Assembly (NCBI GenBank): GCA_015231405.1
Contig: JADGBR010000016.1
Span: forward strand, 4,517-67,669
From: Candidatus Omnitrophota bacterium
Lineage (GTDB): Bacteria; Omnitrophota; Gorgyraeia; Tantalellales; Tantalellaceae
Length of the DNA stretch: 63,153 nt
Direction: 5' to 3'
Shown here in pieces: positions 2,975 to 28,870 of the stretch (the first letter of the stretch is position 1; each line of letters opens with the position of its first letter). The notes beneath the pieces are model-generated. The model saw only the letters and a list, made by a program, of their open reading frames with translations. It was not told the origin of the DNA and did not search any database. The translations under genes were made by a program, and so were the position numbers.

Positions 2975-3580
2975 ATGGGGATATCCGATAAAAAAGGTTT
3001 TACTTTGTTGGAGATGGTAGTATCGGTGGCGCTTGCTTTGTCGGTGCTTATGGGCGTTTACGGCGCTTTTTCCGGAGGGATAGATCTCTGGCAATGGATG
3101 AGGGCTAATAAAAATAAGGGTGAGCTGGCGGTCTTTTTCGCCAGATTTGAGCAGGACATGGCTAACAGCATCGACTTGGGGGATAAAGGGTTCAAAGGCG
3201 ATGACGGAACTTTCAGAATGTTTCTAGCTAATCCCGATCTATATTTAATGCGGGCTGATGAAATGTCGTCTATAGGCATAACTAAAGGCGAGGCGATAAG
3301 GACCGTGGAATACGATTTTATCGAGGTGAAAAAGGAAATTAGAAGGAAGATCTACGCATTCGGCTCGGATGAGCCCCAGAGCGATATAGCCGTCCTTGAC
3401 GGGGTTGAGTCCGTAATATTCGCTTACTATGTTCCCGACGGAGGAAAGCCCTCCCTTGTCAGGGAAGATAAATGGGAAGGGAAAGTTCCTTTCGACGTAG
3501 AGATATCGATCGTGGTAGAAAGCAAGGGGAACACTACTGATGCTCACAAGAGGGTATTCGAAAAACCTTTTTCAGCGTGA
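2975..3580 (+). CDS. gspJ: Minor pseudopilin, GspJ-like
   Basis: This protein of about 201 residues has the prepilin signature (DKKG|FTLLEMVVSVALALSVL) at its N-terminus. Length and gene order identify GspJ, which joins GspI and GspK at the pseudopilus tip. I choose the ATG at 2975, with AGGAG at 2959-2963, over the upstream in-frame GTG at 2936, because it leaves a leader of normal length before the cleavage site. The 3' end overlaps gspK by about 40 bases. Confidence 0.8.
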   Translation: MGISDKKGFTLLEMVVSVALALSVLMGVYGAFSGGIDLWQWMRANKNKGELAVFFARFEQDMANSIDLGDKGFKGDDGTFRMFLANPDLYLMRADEMSSIGITKGEAIRTVEYDFIEVKKEIRRKIYAFGSDEPQSDIAVLDGVESVIFAYYVPDGGKPSLVREDKWEGKVPFDVEISIVVESKGNTTDAHKRVFEKPFSA

Positions 3581-14844: not shown

Positions 14845-14894
14845 AGATACTTAGATCTTGTTTGTTTTGTGAAGGCACAAGCAAAGACGGAACA

Positions 14895-15386
14895 ATGAAA
14901 GAACTTGACGCGATCATAAAGAAGTACGAGGGAAAACCCGGCAGGCTCCTTTGTATCATTGAGGATGCGCAGAAGATTGAACCCCGGAAATATCTTGAAC
15001 GGGATGTTCTTGAATATATCGCCAGAAAGACCCGAACATCGGTTTCGAAAATTTACAATATAATAACTTTTTACGCCTTTTTCAATCTCTTTCCTCAGGG
15101 AGAACATTCCATAGTAGTTTGCCGCGGGACGGCATGTCATACCCGCGGGTCCAAAGATATCCAGGATTTTCTTCTCAGGTATTTTGGTTTCGGCGACGGT
15201 GTCGAGGGACAGCAGGCGTCTTTGACGACAAAAGACAATAAGTTCACTTTAAAGACCGTGGCGTGTTTCGGTCAATGTGCTTTAGCTCCCGTGGTAGAGA
15301 TCGACGGGAAGATATACAGCAGGATGACCCAGGAGAAGCTTAAGGCGATAATCAAGGGCATGGATAACAAAAAAAAGAAAAAATGA
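14895..15386 (+). CDS. hydC: Hydrogenase/NADH dehydrogenase 24 kDa subunit (HydC/NuoE-like)
   Basis: This thioredoxin-like [2Fe-2S] subunit belongs to an NAD-linked, electron-bifurcating hydrogenase. About 163 residues from the ATG at 14895; an upstream in-frame TTG at 14862 is less likely. The four cluster ligands are visible as VVCRGTACHTRG and VACFGQCALAP, the NuoE/HydC spacing. The N-terminal helical bundle (ISKIYNIITFYAFF-type) is present. The stop overlaps the start of the NuoF-like gene (ATGA). It relays electrons between the flavin subunit and the iron-sulfur chain. Confidence 0.9.
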   Translation: MKELDAIIKKYEGKPGRLLCIIEDAQKIEPRKYLERDVLEYIARKTRTSVSKIYNIITFYAFFNLFPQGEHSIVVCRGTACHTRGSKDIQDFLLRYFGFGDGVEGQQASLTTKDNKFTLKTVACFGQCALAPVVEIDGKIYSRMTQEKLKAIIKGMDNKKKKK

Positions 15387-18300
15387 AAATACAAGCGATC
15401 GATGATTTGAAAGTATTACAGGCAAAAGGGCTAAAGAAGATTCTGCCTAAAAATGGCAGGATAGCCGTCGGTATGGGGACTTGCGGTATCGGAAATGACG
15501 CACAGGAGGTCTTCCTGGCATTCAAAAAAGCCCTCGCTAAGAGAAGATCACCGTTACTCCTTACGCAGACCGGTTGTTTCGGGTTCTGTGCGGCGGAACC
15601 TTTGGTAAATATTTGGCTTCCGGGAAAACCCCTTGTCATCCTGAAAAATGTTTTGCCAAGTGATGCCGATAAGATCGTGAAAGGCCTTTCCGACGGGATC
15701 ATCGACTCAAGAATGGCTTTATGCAGGATAGACTCATGGGACCATATAACCGCTCAGATAGAGTATGGAAAAGGGTTTCCCGAAATCCCATTGTGGGACC
15801 AGGTGGAATTCTTTAAAGGGCAGAAAAAGATCGTTTTACGTGATTGCGGGATCATAGATCCGGAAGATATCGAGGAATATATCGCCATAGGCGGATACCA
15901 GGGGCTTATGAAAGCATTGACGGGAATGGTTCCGGAACAAGTGATAGACGAAGTTAAAAGGTCCAAGTTGAGGGGCAGAGGCGGAGCGGGCTTCCCGACC
16001 GGAATAAAATGGGAATTGATGCGTAAGTTTAAAAGCGGTGATCCTAAATTGATCATCTGTAATGCGGATGAGGGCGATCCGGGTGCTTACATGAACCGTA
16101 ATGAGAGCGAGAGCGATCCGCATATGCTTATAGAAGGGATGATCATAGGGGCGTATGCTATGGGAGCTTCATCCGGGATAATATACGTTCGAGCCGAATA
16201 TCCTCTTGCGGTGGCAAGATTAAAGAAGGCGGTCTCCGATGCCGGGAAATACGGGCTTATAGGAAAAGATATCTTCGGCAGCGGTTTTTCTTTCGAACTG
16301 GACATCGTCGAGGGCGCCGGAGCGTTCGTTTGCGGCGAAGAGACGGCCCTGATATCCTCTCTTGAGGGTGCTTCGGGTCGTCCGTCTCCCAGGCCGCCTT
16401 ACCCGGCTGAAAAAGGCTACAAAGGTATGCCTACTAACATAAATAATGTCGAGACATGGTGTAATATCCCTGTGATCATAGCTAAGGGGGCGGAGTGGTT
16501 CACCCGGACAGGGACCGAGAAAAGTTCAGGCACAAAGGTGTTTTCTCTTGTGGGAAAGATAAAGAACACGGGTCTTGTCGAACTTCCGTTAGGATCGACT
16601 TTGAGCACGCTTATCTACAATATCGGCGGAGGGACCGGGACGAAAAAAAAGGTGAAGGCTTTGCAAAGCGGAGGCCCTTCAGGCGGGTGTATACCCAACG
16701 ATCTGGTTAACACGCCGATCGACTACGAGACTTTGGCTTCTCTTGGGGCGATAATGGGTTCGGGCGGTATGGTCGTGATGGATGACGATAACTGCATGGT
16801 GGATGTGGCGCGTTACTTTACGGAATTCACGACATCAGAATCCTGTGGCAAATGTACTCCCTGCCGTGAGGGGTTGACGCAGAGCTTGAATATCCTCGAT
16901 AAGATCACTCGCGGCGAGGCCGGAGAAAAAGAGATGAGAGATCTTTCCACACTGGCTTCAGTCATTAAAGATTCGGCATTATGCGGCCTTGGACAGACCG
17001 GACCCAATCCCGTTTTGACCACGTTAAGATATTTTAAGATCGAGTATGATCAGCATGTGAGAGAGAAACGTTGTGACGGGGGGGTATGCGGCAGCCTATT
17101 CATCTCTCCATGCGAGAATAGTTGCCCGCTACATATGAATATCCCCGGGTTCCTGGAATTGTTAAAGGCCGGCAGGTTAGCTGACGCTTTTGATTGCGTC
17201 ATTAGGGAGAACCCTATGCCGGCAACAAGCGGAAGGATATGTCATTTCCATTGCAAGATGCGTTGCCGCCGGGAGGAGATAGACTATCCTGTCTCTCAGG
17301 GCGAGGTTCACAGATTCATAGCGGACAAGATCTATCAAAATAAAAAAGAAGGAGCGATCATAAGGGAGCTTGTAAAAGAAAAATTGCCGGCGACAGGCAA
17401 GAAAATAGCAGTGATCGGAGCCGGCCCCAGCGGGTTGACCTGCGGTTTTTACTTAAGCAGATCAGGGCACGATGTTACTATTTTTGAAGCGCTTCCCAAA
17501 GCAGGCGGAGTGTTACAGTATGGGATCCCTGAGTACCGCCTTCCTAAAAAAGTGTTGGATAAGGAAATATCTTCTATAAAGAAGTTCGGCGTCAAGATAA
17601 TGACAGGTAAAAGGATAGATGCCGAGGGGCTTAAGGCGATAATAAAGTCTTATGACTCAGTGTTCATAGCCACAGGCGCCTATAAAAGCATATCACTGGG
17701 TATTCCCGGGGAGGGCCTTCTAGGGGTAATACACGGCACAAAGTTCCTCGAAGATGCCTCCGAAAAGAAGAGAACGCCTGTAGGAGGCAAAGTAGCAGTT
17801 ATAGGCGCCGGCAATGTCGCGATAGACGCGGCGCGTACTGCCCTGCGTTTCGGCAGCGTTGTAACGATAGTGTATAGACGGATGGAGGAAGATATGCCTG
17901 CGAATAAAGAGGAGATCCGGCAGGCAAAGGAAGAGGGGATCAATTTCATGTTCTTGTCCGCTCCCAAAGAGATACTGGGCGACCAGAAGGGAAGGGTCCG
18001 GGCTTTGATCGCGGAAAAAATGAAATTGGGCGATTACGACCTTTCAGGCAGGAGGAAACCTGTGGCCACGGGGGAGCTAGTGGAAATAGAATGCGATACT
18101 CTGCTCCTGGCCATAGGAGAAAAGGTGGACGCTTCGTTCATGAAAGCGTGCGGCATTGAACTCAAAGAAGACGGGAAGGTCAATGTTGACAACGTATTAT
18201 TTAAGACGAACCTTAAAAAGGTTTACGCCGGGGGAGATGTTGTAATGGGGCCGTCGACCGCCGTTGAGGCTATGTCTAACGGGAAAAAGGCGGCGCGGGC

Positions 18301-18529
18301 GATCGACCGGGCTTTGATGGGAGAGGACAGGTTCGGAAAGCTCCATAAAGTGTATGATTATAGCCAGAAAGCGCCTCAAAATTCCAAATCTTCAAAGAGA
18401 CAGGTGATAAAAATGATGGGAACGGGCAAACGAATTAATAATTTCAAAGAAATATCGGTCGGACTTTCATCAGGCCAGGCTGTTTTTGAGGCCGATAGAT
18501 GTTTGCGCTGCGATATTAAAGAGAATTGA
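15383..18529 (+). CDS. hydB: HydB/NuoF-like flavin subunit fused to a GltD-like oxidoreductase
   Basis: This 1,048-residue fusion joins two oxidoreductases. Residues ~1-110 form a thioredoxin-like [2Fe-2S] domain (TCGIG, GCFGFC). Residues ~120-560 are the NuoF/HydB core with the NADH/FMN site (GRGGAGFPTGIKWE, CNADEGDPGAY) and the N3-type cluster (ESCGKCTPCREG). The usual C-terminal 2x[4Fe-4S] ferredoxin is replaced by the GltD/NfnB cysteine-rich domain (CENSCPLHMNIPGF, GRICHFHCKMRCRRE). FAD and NAD(P) Rossmann folds follow (VIGAGPSGLTCGFYL, VIGAGNVAIDAARTAL, YAGGDVVMGPSTAVEAM). It likely oxidises or reduces NADH and possibly NADPH in the bifurcating complex. HydA follows at once. Confidence 0.9.
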   Translation: MKIQAIDDLKVLQAKGLKKILPKNGRIAVGMGTCGIGNDAQEVFLAFKKALAKRRSPLLLTQTGCFGFCAAEPLVNIWLPGKPLVILKNVLPSDADKIVKGLSDGIIDSRMALCRIDSWDHITAQIEYGKGFPEIPLWDQVEFFKGQKKIVLRDCGIIDPEDIEEYIAIGGYQGLMKALTGMVPEQVIDEVKRSKLRGRGGAGFPTGIKWELMRKFKSGDPKLIICNADEGDPGAYMNRNESESDPHMLIEGMIIGAYAMGASSGIIYVRAEYPLAVARLKKAVSDAGKYGLIGKDIFGSGFSFELDIVEGAGAFVCGEETALISSLEGASGRPSPRPPYPAEKGYKGMPTNINNVETWCNIPVIIAKGAEWFTRTGTEKSSGTKVFSLVGKIKNTGLVELPLGSTLSTLIYNIGGGTGTKKKVKALQSGGPSGGCIPNDLVNTPIDYETLASLGAIMGSGGMVVMDDDNCMVDVARYFTEFTTSESCGKCTPCREGLTQSLNILDKITRGEAGEKEMRDLSTLASVIKDSALCGLGQTGPNPVLTTLRYFKIEYDQHVREKRCDGGVCGSLFISPCENSCPLHMNIPGFLELLKAGRLADAFDCVIRENPMPATSGRICHFHCKMRCRREEIDYPVSQGEVHRFIADKIYQNKKEGAIIRELVKEKLPATGKKIAVIGAGPSGLTCGFYLSRSGHDVTIFEALPKAGGVLQYGIPEYRLPKKVLDKEISSIKKFGVKIMTGKRIDAEGLKAIIKSYDSVFIATGAYKSISLGIPGEGLLGVIHGTKFLEDASEKKRTPVGGKVAVIGAGNVAIDAARTALRFGSVVTIVYRRMEEDMPANKEEIRQAKEEGINFMFLSAPKEILGDQKGRVRALIAEKMKLGDYDLSGRRKPVATGELVEIECDTLLLAIGEKVDASFMKACGIELKEDGKVNVDNVLFKTNLKKVYAGGDVVMGPSTAVEAMSNGKKAARAIDRALMGEDRFGKLHKVYDYSQKAPQNSKSSKRQVIKMMGTGKRINNFKEISVGLSSGQAVFEADRCLRCDIKEN

Positions 18530-18531
18530 CC

Positions 18532-20322
18532 ATGAGCGATATCAAGATAAGCGTAAAAATAGACGGTAAAGACTATGTCTTCTCAGGTCCTCAGACCATC
18601 CTGGAGGCTTGTAAAAGTGCCTCTATAGAAATCCCCGCGCTGTGCTTTATGGAGGGTTTGAACAAGGAAGCGGCCTGTTCTATTTGTGTTGTTGAGGTGA
18701 AAGGAGCGAGGACATTGATACGTTCCTGTGTGACCAATATAACGGATAAAATGGAGATCTATACCCATACGCAAAGGGTTAGAGAGGCAAGACGGGTCAA
18801 TCTCGAACTGCTCCTCGCCGGGCACCCTAAAGATTGCCTGGCATGCGGCAGGAACGAGACCTGTGAATTGAGGAAAATGGCCGCTGATATGGGCATAAGA
18901 GAGGTCAGGTTCCCAAAAGTGCAAAAGACGGAACATCAAATAGACAGGACCTCTGTATCGATAGTCAGGGACCCGAATAAATGTATTTTGTGCGGGAGAT
19001 GCGTTTCGATGTGCTCTTCCGTGCAGGGTGTGGAAGCTATTGCCTTTACGGGCCGGGGAAAGAACTCCAAAGTCTCGACATTTTTTGAGGAAGGATTGGC
19101 GAATAGCGTTTGCGTGAACTGCGGCCAATGCGCCGCGGTTTGTCCGACAGGGGCGATAGTCGAACAAAACGCCGTTGACGACGTATGGAAAGCGTTATCG
19201 GATCCCGGAAAATTCGTGGTGGTCGAAGTAGCGCCTGCGGTCAGGGCGGCTTTAGGAGAGGAGTTCCAGATGCCGGCGGGCAGCTTGGTAACCGCTAAGC
19301 TGGCGGAAGCCTTGAAGAAGGTGGGGTTCTACAAGGTATTTGACACGCAGTTCACCGCGGACCTTACGATCATGGAGGAAGGACATGAGCTTATCTCCAG
19401 GATCAAAAATAAAGGTACGCTTCCGATGATAACATCATGCTCACCCGGGTGGGTAAAGTTCGCGGAACATTTTTTTCCGGGGATCATCCCTAATATATCA
19501 ACCTGTAAATCACCCCAGCAGATGTTTGGCGCGGTCGCGAAGAGCTATTACGCTAAAAAGTTCAATATCGATCCAAGAAAAATAGTCGTTGTTTCAATAA
19601 TGCCTTGCACCGCGAAAAAGTTCGAGGCAAGACGCCCTGAGATGAGATCGGCATTCGATTATTGGCAAGAAGAGATGAAATTGAGTGAAAAAGAAGCCTT
19701 TTACGACGTGGATCATGTTCTGACGACGCGTGAAGCGGCCAGGATGATCAAGGAAGCTGGTATAGATTTTGTGAGCCTGAAGGGCGGGGATTTCGATGAG
19801 CCTTTAGGTATATCGACCGGTGCGGCGGTAATATTCGGAGCAACCGGGGGTGTTATGGAGGCCGCATTGAGGACTGCATATGAGGTCCTGACGGGTAAAG
19901 AGCTGGAAAAACTGGATTTTATGGATTTGAGGGGTTTGGAAGGGATTAAGGTGTGTGACGTGGAGATATCCGGATCGGTCCTGAAAGTGGCTGTAGCGAA
20001 TAGCCTTAAGAACGCGCGTAAACTTCTTGAAGAAGTTCAGGAAGGGAGATCTCCTTACGCCTTTATTGAGATCATGACTTGTCCTGGAGGATGCATAGGA
20101 GGCGGGGGACAGCCCCATGCATTGGACAATACGGTAAAAAAAATGCGCATGGAAGCGATCTACCGGGAGGATCACGGCAAAAAATTACGGAAATCTCACC
20201 AGAATCCCGCGGTCACAGCTCTGTACAAGGAGTTCTTGGGAGAACCTTTGGGTGAGTTGTCCCATCATCTTTTGCATACAAGTTATTCGGAAAGGCGCGA
20301 AACATCTTATGGCAAAAGATAA
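18532..20322 (+). CDS. hydA: [FeFe]-hydrogenase catalytic subunit HydA (group A, NAD-linked)
   Basis: This ~596-residue subunit catalyses reversible H2 formation. The domains in order are: an N-terminal [2Fe-2S] (CFMEGLNKEAACSICVVEV), a His-ligated cluster (GHPKDCLACGRNETC), two [4Fe-4S] (CILCGRCVSMC, CVNCGQCAAVC) and the H-cluster domain. The three H-cluster signatures are intact: TSCSPGWVKF, MPCTAKKFE and EIMTCPGGCIGGGGQP. A C-terminal small-subunit-like tail is present. With the NuoE and NuoF partners this is the trimeric, probably electron-bifurcating type. The ATG at 18532 comes just after the hydB stop; a TTG at 18526 is the alternative. No maturases (HydE/F/G) occur in the window. Confidence 0.95.
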   Translation: MSDIKISVKIDGKDYVFSGPQTILEACKSASIEIPALCFMEGLNKEAACSICVVEVKGARTLIRSCVTNITDKMEIYTHTQRVREARRVNLELLLAGHPKDCLACGRNETCELRKMAADMGIREVRFPKVQKTEHQIDRTSVSIVRDPNKCILCGRCVSMCSSVQGVEAIAFTGRGKNSKVSTFFEEGLANSVCVNCGQCAAVCPTGAIVEQNAVDDVWKALSDPGKFVVVEVAPAVRAALGEEFQMPAGSLVTAKLAEALKKVGFYKVFDTQFTADLTIMEEGHELISRIKNKGTLPMITSCSPGWVKFAEHFFPGIIPNISTCKSPQQMFGAVAKSYYAKKFNIDPRKIVVVSIMPCTAKKFEARRPEMRSAFDYWQEEMKLSEKEAFYDVDHVLTTREAARMIKEAGIDFVSLKGGDFDEPLGISTGAAVIFGATGGVMEAALRTAYEVLTGKELEKLDFMDLRGLEGIKVCDVEISGSVLKVAVANSLKNARKLLEEVQEGRSPYAFIEIMTCPGGCIGGGGQPHALDNTVKKMRMEAIYREDHGKKLRKSHQNPAVTALYKEFLGEPLGELSHHLLHTSYSERRETSYGKR

Positions 20323-20538: not shown

Positions 20539-21366
20539 ATGAGGATAGTGAGTAAGGAGTTCCTGGTGGACGGTCACGGGATGCGCATAGCTAAATTGGC
20601 GGTCAAATCCCCGGAAATAGCTTCGAAAGCTAAAGCAGGACAGTTTGTCGTCCTGATGGTGGAAGAAAAAGGCGAGAGGATCCCCCTTACGATCGTCGAA
20701 GCCGATGCCTCCAATGGGTTAATAACGATCATTGTACAAGCAGCCGGGTTCACCTCATCGCTGCTTGCCGGAATGAACGAAGGTGATACGCTCTATTCGA
20801 TAGTTGGTCCCTTAGGGCATCCGACGGATGTGAAAAAATATGGAAAGGTCGCGCTTATCGGCGGAGGGGTCGGGATAGCGGAAATATATCCTGTCGCGAA
20901 GGCGATGAAAGACAGAGGGAACTATGTCGCGATCATCATAGGGGCCAGGTCAAAAGATCTGTTGATCCTTGAGAAAGAATTAACGGGTATCGCCGACGAA
21001 ATGGTTGTAATGACCGATGACGGCTCGTATGGACGAAAAGGATTCGTAACGGACGCGCTCAAACAGCTACTCGGAAGAGAGAAATACGATCTGGCGTATG
21101 CGGTTGGGCCGATCCCTATGATGAGAGCGGTCTCCGATTTGTCGAAGTCTTTCGCTGTAGTGACCCTTGTTTCACTGAACGCTATTATGGTCGACGGGAC
21201 AGGAATGTGCGGTTGTTGCAGGGTGAAAGTGGGCAACGATATGAAATTCAGCTGCGTTGACGGTCCTGAGTTCGAGGCCTGGCAAGTTGACTGGCAGGAA
21301 CTGTCGATCCGCAATGGCATTTACGCCGAGCAGGAAAAACATATTTGCCGCCTGAATAAGGCTTAA
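20539..21366 (+). CDS. nfnA: NADH-dependent ferredoxin:NADP oxidoreductase subunit A (NfnA)
   Basis: This 275-residue FAD/NAD-binding protein of the ferredoxin-NADP reductase/PyrK family has an N-terminal beta-barrel FAD domain (ERIPLTIVEADASNGLITI), a NAD-binding half (VALIGGGVGIAEIYPVAKAM) and a C-terminal [2Fe-2S] site (MCGCCRVKVGNDMKFSCVDG). With the GltD-like partner ten bases downstream it forms NfnAB, the electron-bifurcating transhydrogenase between NADH, ferredoxin and NADPH. GGGGGTGG precedes the ATG. The subunit is also described as sulfide dehydrogenase beta in older annotation. Confidence 0.9.
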   Translation: MRIVSKEFLVDGHGMRIAKLAVKSPEIASKAKAGQFVVLMVEEKGERIPLTIVEADASNGLITIIVQAAGFTSSLLAGMNEGDTLYSIVGPLGHPTDVKKYGKVALIGGGVGIAEIYPVAKAMKDRGNYVAIIIGARSKDLLILEKELTGIADEMVVMTDDGSYGRKGFVTDALKQLLGREKYDLAYAVGPIPMMRAVSDLSKSFAVVTLVSLNAIMVDGTGMCGCCRVKVGNDMKFSCVDGPEFEAWQVDWQELSIRNGIYAEQEKHICRLNKA

Positions 21367-21375
21367 CGGGTTATT

Positions 21376-22809
21376 ATGAAAAATGAACCGGTCACAGCGA
21401 AAGAAGAGGACAGGTCGTCGAGGGTAATGAATTTCGGCGAAGTGGTATTGGGATTTTCTGAGACGGAGGCGCTCGCGGAAGCGTCCAGATGTATCCAGTG
21501 CAAAGACCCCAAATGCGTGAACGGTTGTCCCGTCGGTATAGATATCAAGGAATTCATATCGAGATTGTCAAAAAAGGATTACGACGGAGCGTATTTAACG
21601 ATACGCCATAAGAACAATTTCCCGTCGATTTGCGGCAGGGTGTGCCCCGCCGAATATCAATGCCGTAAACTTTGTGTCTTCACAAAAAAAGGTGAGCCTT
21701 TTGCGTCGGAGAAGGCTATCAATATACATTTCCTCGAACGGTTTATCGGCGATCACGGGGCCGCTAAAGGGATAGAATTGAAAGCGGCTGAGGCTAGTGA
21801 CCTGGCCGGACATAAGGTAGCAGTTGTCGGGTCTGGCCCGGCCGGGCTATGCGCAGCGGGAGAACTGGCCCGGCGGGGAGTTAAAGTCGTTGTTTTTGAA
21901 GGGTTGCATACGACAGGCGGGGTGCTTAGATACGGTATACCTCCTTTCAGGCTTCCCAGGAATATACTTGACGGCGAGATCGACTCGCTCAAAAAGCTCG
22001 GTGTAGAGATACGGACCAATTTTATCGTAGGGAGGGCGCGTACCATAGACGAGCTTTTCGCCGAAGGATATTCGGCAATATTCCTTGGGCTTGGGGCGGG
22101 AATTCCTTCTTTTATGAATATCCCGGGTGAAAATCTTTGCAATGTCTATTCCGCCAACGAGTTTCTTACCAGGGTCAACTTGATGTCGGCTCATAAATTC
22201 CCCGAATATCACACGCCTGTTAACATAGGTAAGCACATCATAGTTATCGGAGGCGGTAATACCGCCATGGACGCGGCCAGGGTCGCTATCAGGCTTCAGA
22301 ATATGAACGGGATCAAACCGGATACGACGATATCTTACAGGCGCACGGAAGTAGAGATGCCGGCGCGCCGGCTTGAGATAGAGCACGCTAAAGAGGAAGG
22401 AGTTAAATTCGAGCTTTTGACCAAGCCCGAGGAATTCATAGGCGGCGAAAGGGGGTTCGTGATGAGGATGCGGGCCTCAAGGTGCGAGCTTGGGGAGCCC
22501 GATGCCTCCGGCAGGCGAAAGCCGGTAGTCATTCCATCGAGCGCGTTCGAGGCGGATTGTGACCTTGCGATAATAGCCATAGGCCTTGGCGCTAATACCA
22601 TTCTGACCGGGGTAACACCCGGGATAAAGATCGATAAATACGGGGACGTGATCGTTGACCCTGAGACAATGGAGACTTCCATTAAAGGTGTTTACGCCGG
22701 AGGCGACATCGTCGGCGGCGAGGGCACCGTCATAGAGGCCATGGGAATGGCCAAAAAAGCTTCTCTTGCCATACTTGACCGCTTGAGGCACCTCTCTACA
22801 GGTTTCTGA
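21376..22809 (+). CDS. nfnB: NfnB/GltD-like NADPH oxidoreductase
   Basis: This 477-residue flavoprotein has an N-terminal cysteine-rich [4Fe-4S] domain (CIQCKDPKCVNGCPVGIDIK, ICGRVCPAEYQC), an FAD fold (VVGSGPAGLCAAGELAR), an NADP fold (VIGGGNTAMDAARVAIRL) and the C-terminal FAD motif (YAGGDIVGGEGTVIEAMGMA). It belongs to the glutamate synthase small subunit family. As the partner of nfnA it is best called NfnB. Because an FMN-type glutamate synthase lies 250 bases downstream, it may also feed electrons to that enzyme; this second role is inference. Confidence 0.9.
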   Translation: MKNEPVTAKEEDRSSRVMNFGEVVLGFSETEALAEASRCIQCKDPKCVNGCPVGIDIKEFISRLSKKDYDGAYLTIRHKNNFPSICGRVCPAEYQCRKLCVFTKKGEPFASEKAINIHFLERFIGDHGAAKGIELKAAEASDLAGHKVAVVGSGPAGLCAAGELARRGVKVVVFEGLHTTGGVLRYGIPPFRLPRNILDGEIDSLKKLGVEIRTNFIVGRARTIDELFAEGYSAIFLGLGAGIPSFMNIPGENLCNVYSANEFLTRVNLMSAHKFPEYHTPVNIGKHIIVIGGGNTAMDAARVAIRLQNMNGIKPDTTISYRRTEVEMPARRLEIEHAKEEGVKFELLTKPEEFIGGERGFVMRMRASRCELGEPDASGRRKPVVIPSSAFEADCDLAIIAIGLGANTILTGVTPGIKIDKYGDVIVDPETMETSIKGVYAGGDIVGGEGTVIEAMGMAKKASLAILDRLRHLSTGF

Positions 22810-22855: not shown

Positions 22856-22884
22856 TTGACAATATGGACAATAAATCGCATAAT
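22856..22884 (+). promoter_or_regulatory. Promoter of the glutamate synthase leader
   Basis: TTGACA (22856-22861), a 17-base spacer and CATAAT (22879-22884). The expected start near 22891 coincides with the first hairpin of the leader, so the leader RNA begins with the tandem-hairpin element. The same arrangement is found at 24712 and 25869. Confidence 0.7.
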
Positions 22885-22887
22885 CTG

Positions 22888-22930
22888 TGATTAGATACAA
22901 GGCAGTATCTGATTAGAACAAAGGCGTTCT
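22888..22930 (+). promoter_or_regulatory. ANTAR-type tandem hexaloop RNA element before glutamate synthase
   Basis: Hairpin P1 has AGATAC (22893-22898), loop AAGGCA and GTATCT (22905-22910), extendable to 11 pairs (22888-22898 with 22905-22915). Hairpin P2 has AGAAC (22915-22919), loop AAAGGC and GTTCT (22926-22930). Both six-base loops have A at position 1 and G at position 4, the published signature of ANTAR-protein RNA targets. The linker is four bases. P2 overlaps the 5' arm of the following terminator, so the two structures exclude one another. The cognate regulator is probably the GAF-ANTAR protein at 28178. Confidence 0.8.
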
Positions 22931-23004
22931 TATCGGTTGATCTAAATTTCCGTTAGCGTAATTTACGGTATTTCGATGTCCGGTCGAGCGCTTTTTTTAT
23001 TTTT
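22924..23004 (+). terminator. Intrinsic terminator (attenuator) before glutamate synthase
   Basis: The 5' arm GCGTTC (22924-22929) plus ATCGG (22932-22936) pairs with CCGGT (22980-22984) plus GAGCGC (22986-22991), with a small internal loop. Seven T then ATTTTT follow (22992-23004). The long loop holds a minor CCGT/ACGG hairpin. The 5' arm shares bases with loop and 3' arm of P2, so P2 formation would prevent termination. Confidence 0.65.
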
Positions 23005-23059: not shown

Positions 23060-24703
23060 ATGATCCATTGGCAAAAATCGAATGACGCGTTGGGGACCGT
23101 TAACAGGGGTAATCCCTGCGAGTCGGGGCTCTGCACTTTGTGCGAGTCAAAATGTAAGGGGAAATGCGAAACCTGGATGTCCAGCATGGTCGGGCGAAAA
23201 CTCCTATATCCCAGAGATTTCGGTTCTATCACAGCGGGAAGCTCGAATACGAGTCATATAGGAGTGTCATATAATTCCCTCAGGATCAACGGTTATAACT
23301 ACGGCGCCAACGGCCTTTCGAAAGGGCTCTCGACGGCGGAAGACGATTGCATATTCCCGAACGTCAGCCTTGAAACCGAATTCGGCTCAAAAGTAAAAAC
23401 AAAATGCCGTGTGCCCATGATGACAGGCGCTCTAGGATCGACTTTTATAGCCGCGAAATACTGGGAATCTTTCGCCATAGGGGCCGCTCTCGTGGGGTAT
23501 CCGATCGTCATCGGAGAGAATGTCGTTGGCGTGGACAAAGAATCGGTCATTAATAAGGGAAAGATATCAAAAGCTCCGGAACTCGACAGGAGGATCGATA
23601 CTTTTCTGAAGTATTATGACGGTTACGGCGCGATCATAGTCCAGCTTAACGTTGAGGACACCAGGAACGGCGTTGCGGAATACGTTATCGGGAAATACGG
23701 CGATAAAGTGATCATCGAGCTGAAATGGGGCCAGGGGGCTAAATGTATAGGCGGTGAAATACAGGTAACAAGTCTCGAATACGCGCTTTTTCTGAAGAAT
23801 AGGGGTTATGTTGTCGATCCCGATCCGACGAAGCCTGAAGTGCAGGAAGCGTTCAAACATAAGACCATCAGGTCTTTCGCCCGGCATTCAAGGCTCGGCT
23901 ATACCAGCCTTTCTTCCGAATCCCAGGTCCACGACTCCTTCATGAAGTCGGTGGCGTATCTCAGAAAGATCGGTTATAACCGGATATCTCTAAAGACCGG
24001 CTCATACGGTATGGAAGCCCTGGCTATGTCCATTAAATACGCGACGGAAGCCAAACTTGATCTTCTGACGATAGACGGTTCCGGCGGCGGTACAGGTATG
24101 AGCCCGTGGAACATGATGGAATCATGGGGCGTTCCCTCGCTCCTTCTTCACGCGAAGGCTTATGAATACGCGAAGATACTGTCGAAGAAAAAAGGCGTTA
24201 AGGTCGTCGACATGGCCTTCGCGGGCGGGCTCGCGAAGGAAGACCAGATATTCAAGGCTCTCGCGCTCGGCGCTCCTTTCACGAAGCTGGTCTGCATGGG
24301 CAGGGCCCTAATGATACCCGCGTATTTAGGCGCTAACGTGCAGGGCGTAATGGACCCGTCGCAGAAAGTGAAGCTTAACGGTAACTGGGACGAGCTTCCA
24401 TCCAACGTGAAAGAACTCGGGAGTTCAGCCGATGAAATATTCTCCGGTTATTACGATGTTCAGAAAAAAGTCGGTAAGGGCGAAATGAAGAATATACCTT
24501 TAGGGGCTATAGCTTCATGGACTCTAGCCGATAAGCTCGCCGCCGGGCTTCAGCAGCTCCTTGCCGGCGCGCGTAAGTTCAAGGTCACCGAGATAACAAG
24601 GGGCGAGATCTTCTCGTGCAACAGGGAAACCGAGGCCGAGACGAAGGTCCCGTTCATCACTGACGTCGCCGACGATGTGGCGAAGAATATTTTGAAGGCT
24701 TAA
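23060..24703 (+). CDS. FMN-binding glutamate synthase-family protein
   Basis: This 547-residue protein corresponds to the central/FMN domain of the glutamate synthase large subunit, without the glutaminase domain, as in archaeal-type GltB. It has an N-terminal cysteine cluster (CESGLCTLCESKCKGKCETW) and a TIM-barrel with the glycine-rich FMN/2-oxoglutarate region (LLTIDGSGGGTGMSPWNMME) and AFAGGLAKEDQIFKALALGA. It would make glutamate from 2-oxoglutarate and ammonia or glutamine, with electrons from a GltD/Nfn-type partner such as the gene at 21376. AGGAGG precedes the ATG by about 7 bases. Expression is probably controlled by the ANTAR-type leader upstream. It ends before the next promoter, so it looks monocistronic. 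Confidence 0.88.
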   Translation: MIHWQKSNDALGTVNRGNPCESGLCTLCESKCKGKCETWMSSMVGRKLLYPRDFGSITAGSSNTSHIGVSYNSLRINGYNYGANGLSKGLSTAEDDCIFPNVSLETEFGSKVKTKCRVPMMTGALGSTFIAAKYWESFAIGAALVGYPIVIGENVVGVDKESVINKGKISKAPELDRRIDTFLKYYDGYGAIIVQLNVEDTRNGVAEYVIGKYGDKVIIELKWGQGAKCIGGEIQVTSLEYALFLKNRGYVVDPDPTKPEVQEAFKHKTIRSFARHSRLGYTSLSSESQVHDSFMKSVAYLRKIGYNRISLKTGSYGMEALAMSIKYATEAKLDLLTIDGSGGGTGMSPWNMMESWGVPSLLLHAKAYEYAKILSKKKGVKVVDMAFAGGLAKEDQIFKALALGAPFTKLVCMGRALMIPAYLGANVQGVMDPSQKVKLNGNWDELPSNVKELGSSADEIFSGYYDVQKKVGKGEMKNIPLGAIASWTLADKLAAGLQQLLAGARKFKVTEITRGEIFSCNRETEAETKVPFITDVADDVAKNILKA

Positions 24704-24711
24704 AAAAATAA

Positions 24712-24740
24712 TTGACAATAAGTCTTTGATGGTGTAACAT
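24712..24740 (+). promoter_or_regulatory. Promoter of the porin leader
   Basis: TTGACA (24712-24717), a 17-base spacer and TAACAT (24735-24740). The predicted start near 24747 falls at the first hairpin. The layout copies the glutamate synthase and glutamine synthetase leaders. Confidence 0.68.
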
Positions 24741-24743
24741 AAA

Positions 24744-24780
24744 CGCATACGTTGTTGTATGTGATGCGAAGAGGCGTTCG
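24744..24780 (+). promoter_or_regulatory. ANTAR-type tandem hexaloop element before the porin
   Basis: P1 pairs 24744-24750 with 24757-24763 (core CATAC/GTATG) around the loop GTTGTT. P2 pairs CGAA (24767-24770) with TTCG (24777-24780) around the loop GAGGCG. Both loops have G at position 4 but G rather than A at position 1, so they deviate from the strict consensus. P2 has only four pairs. It lies entirely within or beside the 5' arm of the terminator at 24768, giving the mutually exclusive arrangement expected of ANTAR control. Confidence 0.55.
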
Positions 24781-24804
24781 ATACCGAACGCCTCTTCTGT
24801 TTTA
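24768..24804 (+). terminator. First terminator hairpin in the porin leader
   Basis: A perfect 13-pair stem, GAAGAGGCGTTCG (24768-24780) with CGAACGCCTCTTC (24785-24797), closes the loop ATAC and is followed by TGTTTTA. Its 5' arm is the same sequence that forms hairpin P2. The T-tract is short, so it may act as a pausing or partial terminator. Confidence 0.6.
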
Positions 24805-24826
24805 GAGGTACTTTTAGTGATCGACG

Positions 24827-24873
24827 AGGGCGTCTTGTGATCCCATGTGGGATGGCGAGGCGCCTTTTTTTTT
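24827..24873 (+). terminator. Second terminator in the porin leader
   Basis: The outer stem AGGGCGTCTTG (24827-24837) pairs with CGAGGCGCCTT (24856-24866), including GT pairs. The inner stem ATCCC/GGGAT closes ATGT. A run of nine T follows (24865-24873). It ends eight bases before the RBS of the porin. Two terminators in one 140-base leader suggest very tight repression in the absence of the antiterminator. Confidence 0.75.
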
Positions 24874-25868: not shown

Positions 25869-25897
25869 TTGACATTTGTTAGATTTTTTTGTAGAAT
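25869..25897 (+). promoter_or_regulatory. Promoter of the glutamine synthetase leader
   Basis: TTGACA (25869-25874), a 17-base spacer and TAGAAT (25892-25897). The expected start near 25904 coincides with hairpin P1. Confidence 0.72.
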
Positions 25898-25900
25898 CTC

Positions 25901-25941
25901 AGCACACAAAGTTGTGTTCTCTTAAGGATGAAGAAGTCCTT
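25901..25941 (+). promoter_or_regulatory. ANTAR-type tandem hexaloop element before glutamine synthetase
   Basis: P1: ACAC (25904-25907), loop AAAGTT, GTGT (25914-25917), with two more outer pairs after a mismatch. P2: AAGGAT (25924-25929), loop GAAGAA, GTCCTT (25936-25941). P1 has A1 and G4 as in known ANTAR sites; P2 keeps G4 with G at position 1. The 3' arm of P2 is the 5' arm of the terminator that follows. Confidence 0.72.
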
Positions 25942-25974
25942 TTCGGCGACGTATGCCGGGAAGGATTTTTTTTT
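25937..25974 (+). terminator. Intrinsic terminator (attenuator) before glutamine synthetase
   Basis: An 11-pair stem, TCCTTTTCGGC (25937-25947) with GCCGGGAAGGA (25955-25965) including two GT pairs, is followed by nine T (25966-25974). It lies about 70 bases before the glnN start. It overlaps P2 of the tandem element, so antitermination by an ANTAR protein is structurally possible. Confidence 0.8.
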
Positions 25975-26045
25975 GTCCATGGAAGGTGATTGTAGTTGAA
26001 ATAGGCTGGAAAAGGGTTAAAATAACACTAAAAAGGAGAAAGAAT

Positions 26046-28160
26046 ATGGAAAGGAATTTAGGGGGGTTGGATGAGCAGACATTCGCCGATATCTACGGGC
26101 AGGATGTTTTCAACTTGAAAACGATGAGGAATTATCTTTCCGAAAAGGCCTATAGGTCATTGAGCGCCACGATAAAGGAAAGGAGCCCTCTTGATCCGGG
26201 GATAGCCGACGAAGTCGCTGACGCCATGAAGAACTGGGCGGTCGCTAGAGGGGCAACCCATTTCTCGCATTGGTTCCAGCCTCTTACGGGCACTACCGCC
26301 GAAAAACACGATTCTTTCATACAGCCGGATTACGAGGGTGGGGTTATACTCAGGTTCTCCGGCAAGGAACTCACCCAGGGAGAACCGGACGCGTCCAGTT
26401 TTCCTTCGGGAGGTTTAAGGGCTACTTTTGAAGCGAGAGGCTATACCGCATGGGATCCGACGTCACCGGCTTTTATCAAAAAGGGTGCGAACGGTGCGAC
26501 CTTATGTATACCCTGCGCTTTTATCGGCTACCACGGCGAAGCGCTGGACAAGAAGGCGCCTCTCTTAAGGTCCATGGATGCTTTGTCCAAACAGGTTTGC
26601 AGACTTGGAGAGATATTCGGCGTAAAATCCAAGGGAAAAAGGGCTTATGCCACATTGGGCCCCGAGCAGGAATATTTCCTCATCGATGAAGCGATGTATT
26701 CGGCGAGGCTTGACCTGATACAGACCGGCAGGACACTTTTCGGGAAGAAGCCTGCGAAACACCAGCAGATGGAAGACCATTATTTCGGAGCGATAAAGCC
26801 GAGGATACTCGCCTTCATGGAGGAGGTCAACAGGGACCTGTGGAAGCTGGGTATACCCGCGAAGACACAGCATAACGAGGTATGTCCCGCGCAGTTCGAG
26901 TTGGCTCCGGTATTCGAGGAGCTTAACCTCGCTGTGGATCATAATATGCTGGTAATGCAGGTCCTGAAAGATGTAGCTGAAAGGCATGGATTTAAATGTC
27001 TTCTTCACGAAAAACCGTATGCCGGAGTGAACGGTTCCGGAAAACACAACAACTGGGCTATAGCCGGACCGGACGGGAAGAATTGGCTCACGCCGGGTGA
27101 GACGCCGCATGAGAACGCGAAATTCCTTACCATAATTTGCGCGCTCATTAAGGCTGTTGATACTAACGCCGCTCTTCTAAGGGCGTCGGTGGCGTCCGCG
27201 GGAAATGATCATAGGCTCGGGGCTAACGAAGCTCCACCGGCCATTATTTCCATATTCCTCGGTGAGCAGCTTACCGAAATAATGGACCAGATAGAGAAGG
27301 GCGGCGCGAAATCGTCCAAAAAAGGAGGCGTTCTGGAACTTGGCGTCTCTTCGCTGCCTAAACTTCCGAAGGATGTGACCGACCGTAATAGGACCAGTCC
27401 CTTTGCATTTACAGGCAACAAATTCGAGTTCAGGGCAGTCGGGTCAAGTCAGAGCTGCGCAGGGTCGAATGTTGTAATAAACACGATCGTAGCTGACGCT
27501 CTTGATGAGATATGCGATGAACTTGAGAGAGTACGAAAATCCGGAAAGGATTTCAATAAGGGATTACAGTCGCTTCTCCAGGGGATAATAAAGAAACATA
27601 AAAGGATCCTTTTTAACGGCGATAACTACACCGATGAATGGAAGAACGAGGCCAAGAAGCGCGGACTTCCGAACCTTCTTAAGACCCCGGAAGCTATCGA
27701 CGCTATCGAACACGACGAGAGGATATTCAAAATGTTCCAGAAGCATGGGGTCCTCTCTAAAGAGGAATACCACTCTCGTAATGAGGTCTACAAGGAGACA
27801 TACGAGAAAACCGTTATAATGGAAGCGAACTGCGCTTTGACCATGGCCAGGACGCTCGTCATACCCGCTGCGGTGCAGTACGAGACGATGTTGGCTGAAA
27901 AGATATCCATGGTGACTGGGGTCAGTAAGAAGATCTCGCAGTCCTCTGCGATCGGCCTTCTTTCGGACGTTTCTTCTCTTACTGAAAAGGCGATCTCGAC
28001 GGCTGATAGCTTAGAAAAAGCGATACTAAACGGTGCTCATGCAAAAGACCTGTTACAGGATATGACCGAACTCAGGAAGGCGGCGGACTCTTTAGAGGGA
28101 CTTCTCCCTGACGAGCTTTGGCCTCTGCCGACATACGCCGAAATGATGTTCATGCTTTAA
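26046..28160 (+). CDS. glnN: Glutamine synthetase type III (GlnN)
   Basis: This 704-residue enzyme makes glutamine from glutamate, ammonia and ATP; the length and the N-terminus (FADIYGQDVFNLKTMRNYL) are those of GSIII rather than GSI. Recognisable segments are GPEQEYFLID, the metal/glutamate region KTQHNEVCPAQFELAPVFEE, CLLHEKPYAGVNGSGKHNNW and the ATP/glutamate loop GNDHRLGANEAPPAII. The start at 26046 has AGGAG seven bases upstream; an open frame continues upstream to 25953 but runs through the terminator T-tract. The GAF-ANTAR gene begins 17 bases downstream, so both are probably under the same attenuator. Confidence 0.95.
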   Translation: MERNLGGLDEQTFADIYGQDVFNLKTMRNYLSEKAYRSLSATIKERSPLDPGIADEVADAMKNWAVARGATHFSHWFQPLTGTTAEKHDSFIQPDYEGGVILRFSGKELTQGEPDASSFPSGGLRATFEARGYTAWDPTSPAFIKKGANGATLCIPCAFIGYHGEALDKKAPLLRSMDALSKQVCRLGEIFGVKSKGKRAYATLGPEQEYFLIDEAMYSARLDLIQTGRTLFGKKPAKHQQMEDHYFGAIKPRILAFMEEVNRDLWKLGIPAKTQHNEVCPAQFELAPVFEELNLAVDHNMLVMQVLKDVAERHGFKCLLHEKPYAGVNGSGKHNNWAIAGPDGKNWLTPGETPHENAKFLTIICALIKAVDTNAALLRASVASAGNDHRLGANEAPPAIISIFLGEQLTEIMDQIEKGGAKSSKKGGVLELGVSSLPKLPKDVTDRNRTSPFAFTGNKFEFRAVGSSQSCAGSNVVINTIVADALDEICDELERVRKSGKDFNKGLQSLLQGIIKKHKRILFNGDNYTDEWKNEAKKRGLPNLLKTPEAIDAIEHDERIFKMFQKHGVLSKEEYHSRNEVYKETYEKTVIMEANCALTMARTLVIPAAVQYETMLAEKISMVTGVSKKISQSSAIGLLSDVSSLTEKAISTADSLEKAILNGAHAKDLLQDMTELRKAADSLEGLLPDELWPLPTYAEMMFML

Positions 28161-28177
28161 AAGGGGTGACGCGTAAA

Positions 28178-28870
28178 ATGAAACAGACTAGCGATTATCT
28201 TGTGGCTCTTAATAAGATCAGCCAAGCCATAACGTCAGATCTCTATATCGAGGATATATTGAAGCTGATAGTAAATCTTACGGCCAGCATGATGAACGCG
28301 AAGATCTGCGCCGTTTGGCTTCTCGAAGAGAAGACGAAAGAGCTCAAGATACGCGCTACCCAGGCGATGAGCCAGGAGTATCTGAAGGAACGATCGCTTA
28401 AGATCGGGGAGGGGATAGTCGGCCTTGTCGCCCAGGAAAGGAAGGCTATCTCCATCCTCGATGTCACTCTGGATAAGAGGTATAAAGAGAAAGAACTCGC
28501 GAAAAAAGAGAGTCTGGTCTCCATGTTGTCGGTGCCTATGCTCGTAAAAGACGAGGTGATAGGTGTTATGAGCTGTTACACAACTAAGGAATATGCCTTT
28601 ACGAAGAAAGATATCGACCTTTTTAGCACAGTGGCGAACCAGGCTGCCGTGGCTATGCACAACACGGAACTTCTCATAAAGACCCGAATAATCCAGGAAG
28701 AGCTTGAGTCGAGGAAAAAGATAGAGAAAGCCAAGGGGATACTCATGAAGACCCAGGGCATCAACGAGGATAAGGCATACAACGTGATGCGAAAAGCCAG
28801 CATGGACAAGCGTGTCAATATGAAAGAGATAGCTGAAGCCATAATACTGGCCTATGAGATCCAGAATTGA
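28178..28870 (+). CDS. GAF-ANTAR RNA-binding antitermination regulator
   Basis: This 230-residue protein has a GAF sensor domain (residues ~10-165, for example LKIGEGIVGLVAQERKAISI and VPMLVKDEVIGVMSCY), a short coiled coil and a C-terminal ANTAR domain (KIEKAKGILMKTQGINEDKA, YNVMRKASM) with the conserved AKGILM helix. ANTAR proteins bind tandem hexaloop hairpins in RNA and prevent termination. No receiver domain is present, so a small ligand or partner bound by GAF is the likely signal; its identity is unknown. RBS GGGGTGA lies eight bases before ATG 28178. Placement after glnN and the three candidate target leaders nearby support a nitrogen role and autoregulation. Confidence 0.93.
   Translation: MKQTSDYLVALNKISQAITSDLYIEDILKLIVNLTASMMNAKICAVWLLEEKTKELKIRATQAMSQEYLKERSLKIGEGIVGLVAQERKAISILDVTLDKRYKEKELAKKESLVSMLSVPMLVKDEVIGVMSCYTTKEYAFTKKDIDLFSTVANQAAVAMHNTELLIKTRIIQEELESRKKIEKAKGILMKTQGINEDKAYNVMRKASMDKRVNMKEIAEAIILAYEIQN

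Follow-up and report, generated by a model that had tools for sequence, protein, structure and literature searches.

The window, a stretch of 63,153 nucleotides from a Candidatus Omnitrophota bacterium (GenBank assembly GCA_015231405.1, contig JADGBR010000016.1), carries a gene for an FMN glutamate synthase domain protein, here called gltS, a gene for a type III glutamine synthetase and, directly after the latter, a gene for a GAF-ANTAR protein (Table 1). The archaeal-type label that the initial annotation gave to this synthase was examined through domain content: Glu_synthase PF01645 is the single Pfam match in the whole of GltS, and there was no NCBIfam match to the protein. Directly upstream of the gltS promoter (20539-22809) is a gene pair resembling NfnAB or the NADPH-dependent glutamate synthase small subunit, which is a possible electron source for gltS. 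The cluster at 14862-20322 resembles an electron-bifurcating [FeFe] hydrogenase, with 2Fe-2S thioredoxin-like, Nuo51-like and hydrogenase large-subunit genes; in one relative (L040) a similar NuoE-like gene comes after an attenuator.

Table 1. Features of the gltS and glutamine synthetase III region, in window coordinates
Feature	Position	Strand	Basis and remarks
Predicted sigma-70-type promoter, TTGACA-17-CATAAT	22856..22884	+	11/12 consensus matches; near-consensus
P1 hairpin, gatac[AAGGCA]gtatc	22894..22909	+	A1/G4 loop; 5-bp core, up to 10 bp; sequence and folding
P2 hairpin, candidate antiterminator, agaac[AAAGGC]gttct	22915..22930	+	A1/G4 loop; 5 bp; sequence and folding
Intrinsic terminator	22920..22998	+	5' arm is P2 loop plus P2 3' arm; ends in U7; minimum-energy fold
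gltS, FMN glutamate synthase domain protein, 547 aa, presumed controlled gene	23060..24703	+	PF01645, 6e-16
Possible degenerate tandem attenuators, predicted outer-membrane protein gene	24712..24863	+	Sequence, terminator scan, loop/terminator scan; weak
Glutamine synthetase III leader attenuator	25869..25974	+	Promoter, P1 acac[AAAGTT]gtgt, P2 aaggat[GAAGAA]gtcctt, terminator
Type III glutamine synthetase, presumed to belong to the regulon	25953..28160	+	GSIII_N 7e-75
GAF-ANTAR protein, likely antiterminator protein	28118..28870	+	GAF 1.1e-20, ANTAR 1.9e-20

The gltS leader, whose transcription is predicted from the promoter to start at about 22890-22892, contains two hairpins, each capped by a hexaloop whose first base is A and whose fourth is G (A1/G4). 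The initial annotation had assigned both loops, AAGGCA and AAAGGC, to this class, and we confirm the assignment. It had also placed the start of a terminator arm within the second loop, and GCGTTC (22924-22929) does begin there, pairing with GAGCGC (22986-22991), which is followed by U7 (22992-22998); the full terminator reaches further back, its first base being P2 loop position 1 (22920), so that P2 is excluded when the terminator forms. Folding with P2 forced or free bears out the claim that the two structures cannot coexist: they use mutually exclusive pairs, with energies of -36.3 kcal/mol for the free leader, which contains the terminator, and -25.4 kcal/mol with P2 forced. In the ensemble, terminator pairs have a probability of ~1 and P2 pairs of ~0. 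When the RNA is cut at 22975, before the last terminator arm has been made, P1 and P2 both form. The four-base linker reported between the hairpins holds for a 6-bp P1 (agatac/gtatct), and not for a 5-bp P1, which leaves 5 nt, or a 10-bp P1, which leaves 0 nt. The 10-bp form is the minimum-energy form of P1 in the unconstrained fold, and its lack of a linker counts against reading this leader as an attenuator of the ANTAR kind, given that the linkers of the Enterococcus faecalis eut leaders are 5-12 nt long and that a 3-nt linker impaired induction there (PMC3369931). Linkers of 2-25 nt have been accepted for the ANTAR-target RNAs of Actinobacteria.

This arrangement is rarely produced by chance. 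The fold of the gltS leader has a z of -4.4 relative to shuffled sequences. When the leader was dinucleotide-shuffled 20,000 times, a suitably spaced pair of A1/G4 hexaloop hairpins arose 211 times (~1%), and such a pair together with an overlapping terminator only 4 times. A scan of the whole window, on both strands, for dual A1/G4 hairpins returned only one further match (3456-3493), which lies within a coding region and is absent from the sites that overlap a terminator.

A terminator paired with an alternative fold could also belong to a metabolite riboswitch or a leader-peptide attenuator in which the A1/G4 loops are incidental, and nitrogen genes elsewhere are controlled by attenuators of other kinds. 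However, no Rfam family matched the gltS leader at gathering score, and the best sub-threshold matches were at chance level. As for a leader peptide, the only short reading frame seen (GTG at 22888 to a TAG) precedes the predicted transcript start and on inspection shows no obvious ribosome site. We consider an explanation of this type extremely unlikely.

Comparison with related genomes, which the initial annotation had put forward as a check, favours control by an RNA-binding protein. In the 200 bases before gltS in named relatives, a hairpin with an A1/G4 hexaloop overlaps a terminator at 23 of the 35 Omnitrophota loci, the remaining 12 having no site under the criteria applied; the GltS orthologues are 73-79% identical. 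Nine other loop identities gave 0-1 such overlaps in the same 35 leaders, and shuffling of gltS leaders gave none in 800. Outside Omnitrophota, the overlap was found at 2 of 45 gltS loci of other or unassigned lineages, one of the two being from an unassigned bacterium. Around gltS in a locus titled Clostridiales (L074:5882-7906) we observed several A1/G4 attenuator-like sites, rare outside Omnitrophota. In two relatives (L016 and L017) tandem attenuators precede gltS. The P2 and terminator arms covary, the terminator pairing having 72 cells changed on both sides versus a shuffled mean of 20; these counts are partly circular, since pairing was a criterion in choosing the sites, and the species compared are related rather than independent.

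These leaders also bear on whether P2 simply forms the upstream half of an ordinary terminator, with the A-tract of AAAGGC pairing with the U-run and no protein involved. The gltS terminator is indeed strong, and in the fold the U-run pairs with loop bases 1-3 of P2, which could by itself favour A1 in P2. Yet an ordinary terminator would leave unexplained why, in most gltS leaders, the 5' arm can pair with the 3' arm over a gap of exactly six bases. Nor would it account for P1, which lies outside the terminator and has an A1/G4 loop in 12 of 17 dual leaders versus ~0.03 expected per leader (~0.4 in total), or for P2 loops that lack an A-tract yet retain A1/G4 (ATCGAA, ACAGAC and AATGAA among them). 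In other lineages that have gltS the motif is nearly absent, which likewise argues against an ordinary terminator; we judge such a terminator very unlikely to be the whole explanation.

The candidate for the protein is encoded five kilobases downstream of the gltS leader switch. The GAF-ANTAR protein is the sole ANTAR match found in the genome, and its ANTAR domain (PF03861) scores 72.8 bits against a curated cut-off of 27.3. Solved relatives of this domain are EutV (of the response-regulator type), NasR and Rv1626. In an alignment read against the EutV contacts described in PMC8934654, with a two-residue numbering offset worked out by hand, 9 of the 11 residues that contact RNA are conserved. 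These include the tyrosine stacked on G4 and, holding the same base, the arginine, lysine and glutamate; the changes are N173 to D and R177 to N. The GAF domain most resembles those of PtsP-type proteins and of NifA-like regulators, which suggests that it may sense a nitrogen signal. Among relatives, the GAF-ANTAR gene is immediately upstream of gltS in L010, L014 and L017, and a genome that has gltS and lacks an ANTAR protein (G037) also lacks the A1/G4 leader motif.

Similar sites occur elsewhere in the genome. The leader of the glutamine synthetase III gene contains a second attenuator, in which the loop of P2 has G1 in place of A1; because the listed ATG of the gene (25953) falls within the terminator, the true start is probably downstream, near 25986. 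To search the genome, a covariance model covering P1 and P2 was made from 11 sites. Since two of these came from the window, the gltS leader (32.4 bits) and the glutamine synthetase III leader (26.6 bits, E 0.006) matched by construction. The search gave one new convincing match, the leader of amtB (L134:1490-1650 on contig C25; 17.2 bits). Score alone gives it an E of 1.5, but promoter, terminators and gene are all present there. Two attenuators follow one another in this leader, with the hairpin gac[AAAGGC]gtc, which begins ~10 nt past the -10 box, and then gac[GAAGAC]gtc. Two other matches (L133 and L135) were set aside, as they lie within coding sequence with no terminator seen. The possible attenuators at 24712-24863 include a P2-like gac[GAGGGC]gtc that overlaps a terminator. 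G1/G4 loops were not adopted as a general second class, their number in 1.3 Mb (53 versus 14-39 for other loop identities) being suggestive only. By inspection alone, similar sites in relatives precede GAF-ANTAR-, CTP synthase-, glutamine synthetase- and glutamate dehydrogenase-like genes, as well as NAD synthetase-, carbamoyl-phosphate synthase- and porin-like genes. Glutamine synthetase III and amtB, too, are probably under the control of the GAF-ANTAR protein, and together with gltS would make up a nitrogen-assimilation regulon.

The motifs, the mutually exclusive folds and their conservation are shown, as are the sister sites and the presence of a single ANTAR gene, and we interpret the gltS leader as a protein-controlled transcription attenuator that operates by GAF-ANTAR antitermination within this regulon (probability about 0.9). 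ANTAR control of glutamate synthase, as first proposed from the leader alone, is supported by its anatomy, by the single GAF-ANTAR gene in the cluster and by the P2-terminator overlap at orthologous leaders. In the mechanism that we envisage, P1 and P2 would be made first as RNA emerges from the promoter. With no protein on P2, the arm at 22986-22991 would take the P2 loop and 3' arm, and the resulting terminator would halt RNA polymerase before gltS. When the GAF domain registers a nitrogen signal, most likely shortage, the GAF-ANTAR protein would bind the A1/G4 loops and stabilise P2, allowing the polymerase to read through.

The gltS leader resembles the eut leaders of E. faecalis, which are controlled by EutV/EutW (PMC3369931; PMC8934654), in its two A1/G4 hexaloop hairpins, its overlap of P2 and terminator and the presence of an ANTAR-domain protein. 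Unlike EutV, a phosphorylated response regulator, the regulator here is a one-component GAF-ANTAR protein, and the presumed target is nitrogen assimilation. NasR of Klebsiella, acting on the nasF leader, is likewise a one-component sensor-ANTAR protein that relieves a leader terminator for nitrogen genes (PMC7496416); its NIT domain senses nitrate, whereas the sensor here is a GAF domain with PtsP-like and NifA-like matches. Glutamate synthase had been taken to be a non-standard target, a view that does not survive the literature: the study that defined ANTAR-target RNA (Ramesh et al. 2012, PMC3369931) reported it upstream of glutamate synthase, glutamine synthase and ammonium transporter genes and, in Desulfotomaculum reducens, linked it to genes for glutamate synthase. 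Because ANTAR RNAs were reported there at glutamate synthase genes, the gltS-leader site is of a kind already described for nitrogen genes, the kind of RNA and the functional class of gene being the same as in D. reducens and the phylum different. As of that study no GAF-ANTAR protein had been characterised (PMC3369931), and our search of the literature for ANTAR together with Omnitrophota gave no match.

The leaders differ in the number and spacing of their hairpins. That of gltS in the window is a dual hairpin with a short linker, and its P2 belongs to the same hairpin class as at the gltS leaders of relatives. In many of these P1 is 17-29 nt from P2, farther than the spacings with which EutV worked. 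P1 is missing from about ten gltS leaders and from the amtB leader of the genome itself, which have P2 only. In these leaders a near-consensus promoter has a -10 box ending 5-14 nt before P2, which leaves no space for P1, and P2 starts at the transcription start; promoters and start sites in this comparison are predictions. No P1 hairpin with an A1/G4 or G1/G4 loop was found within 60 nt in a set of ten single leaders, and ANTAR proteins are encoded in single-leader genomes G050, G028, G049 and G019. The P2-only leaders conflict with the two-hairpin rule and, if shown to work, would be less ordinary than the rest of the system. We offer only tentatively, at somewhat less than even odds, that the Omnitrophota GAF-ANTAR regulon includes working single-hairpin sites. 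If they are functional, the two-hairpin requirement of EutV would not be universal, and a P2 formed right at the 5' end would do without the recruitment hairpin.

Our interpretation would extend ANTAR antitermination to core ammonium-assimilation genes in a phylum known mainly from metagenomes, and would connect a one-component GAF-ANTAR regulator with the genes that it likely controls. The leaders with a short linker, a long linker or P2 only would provide a natural set in which to test the number of hairpins that an ANTAR protein requires.
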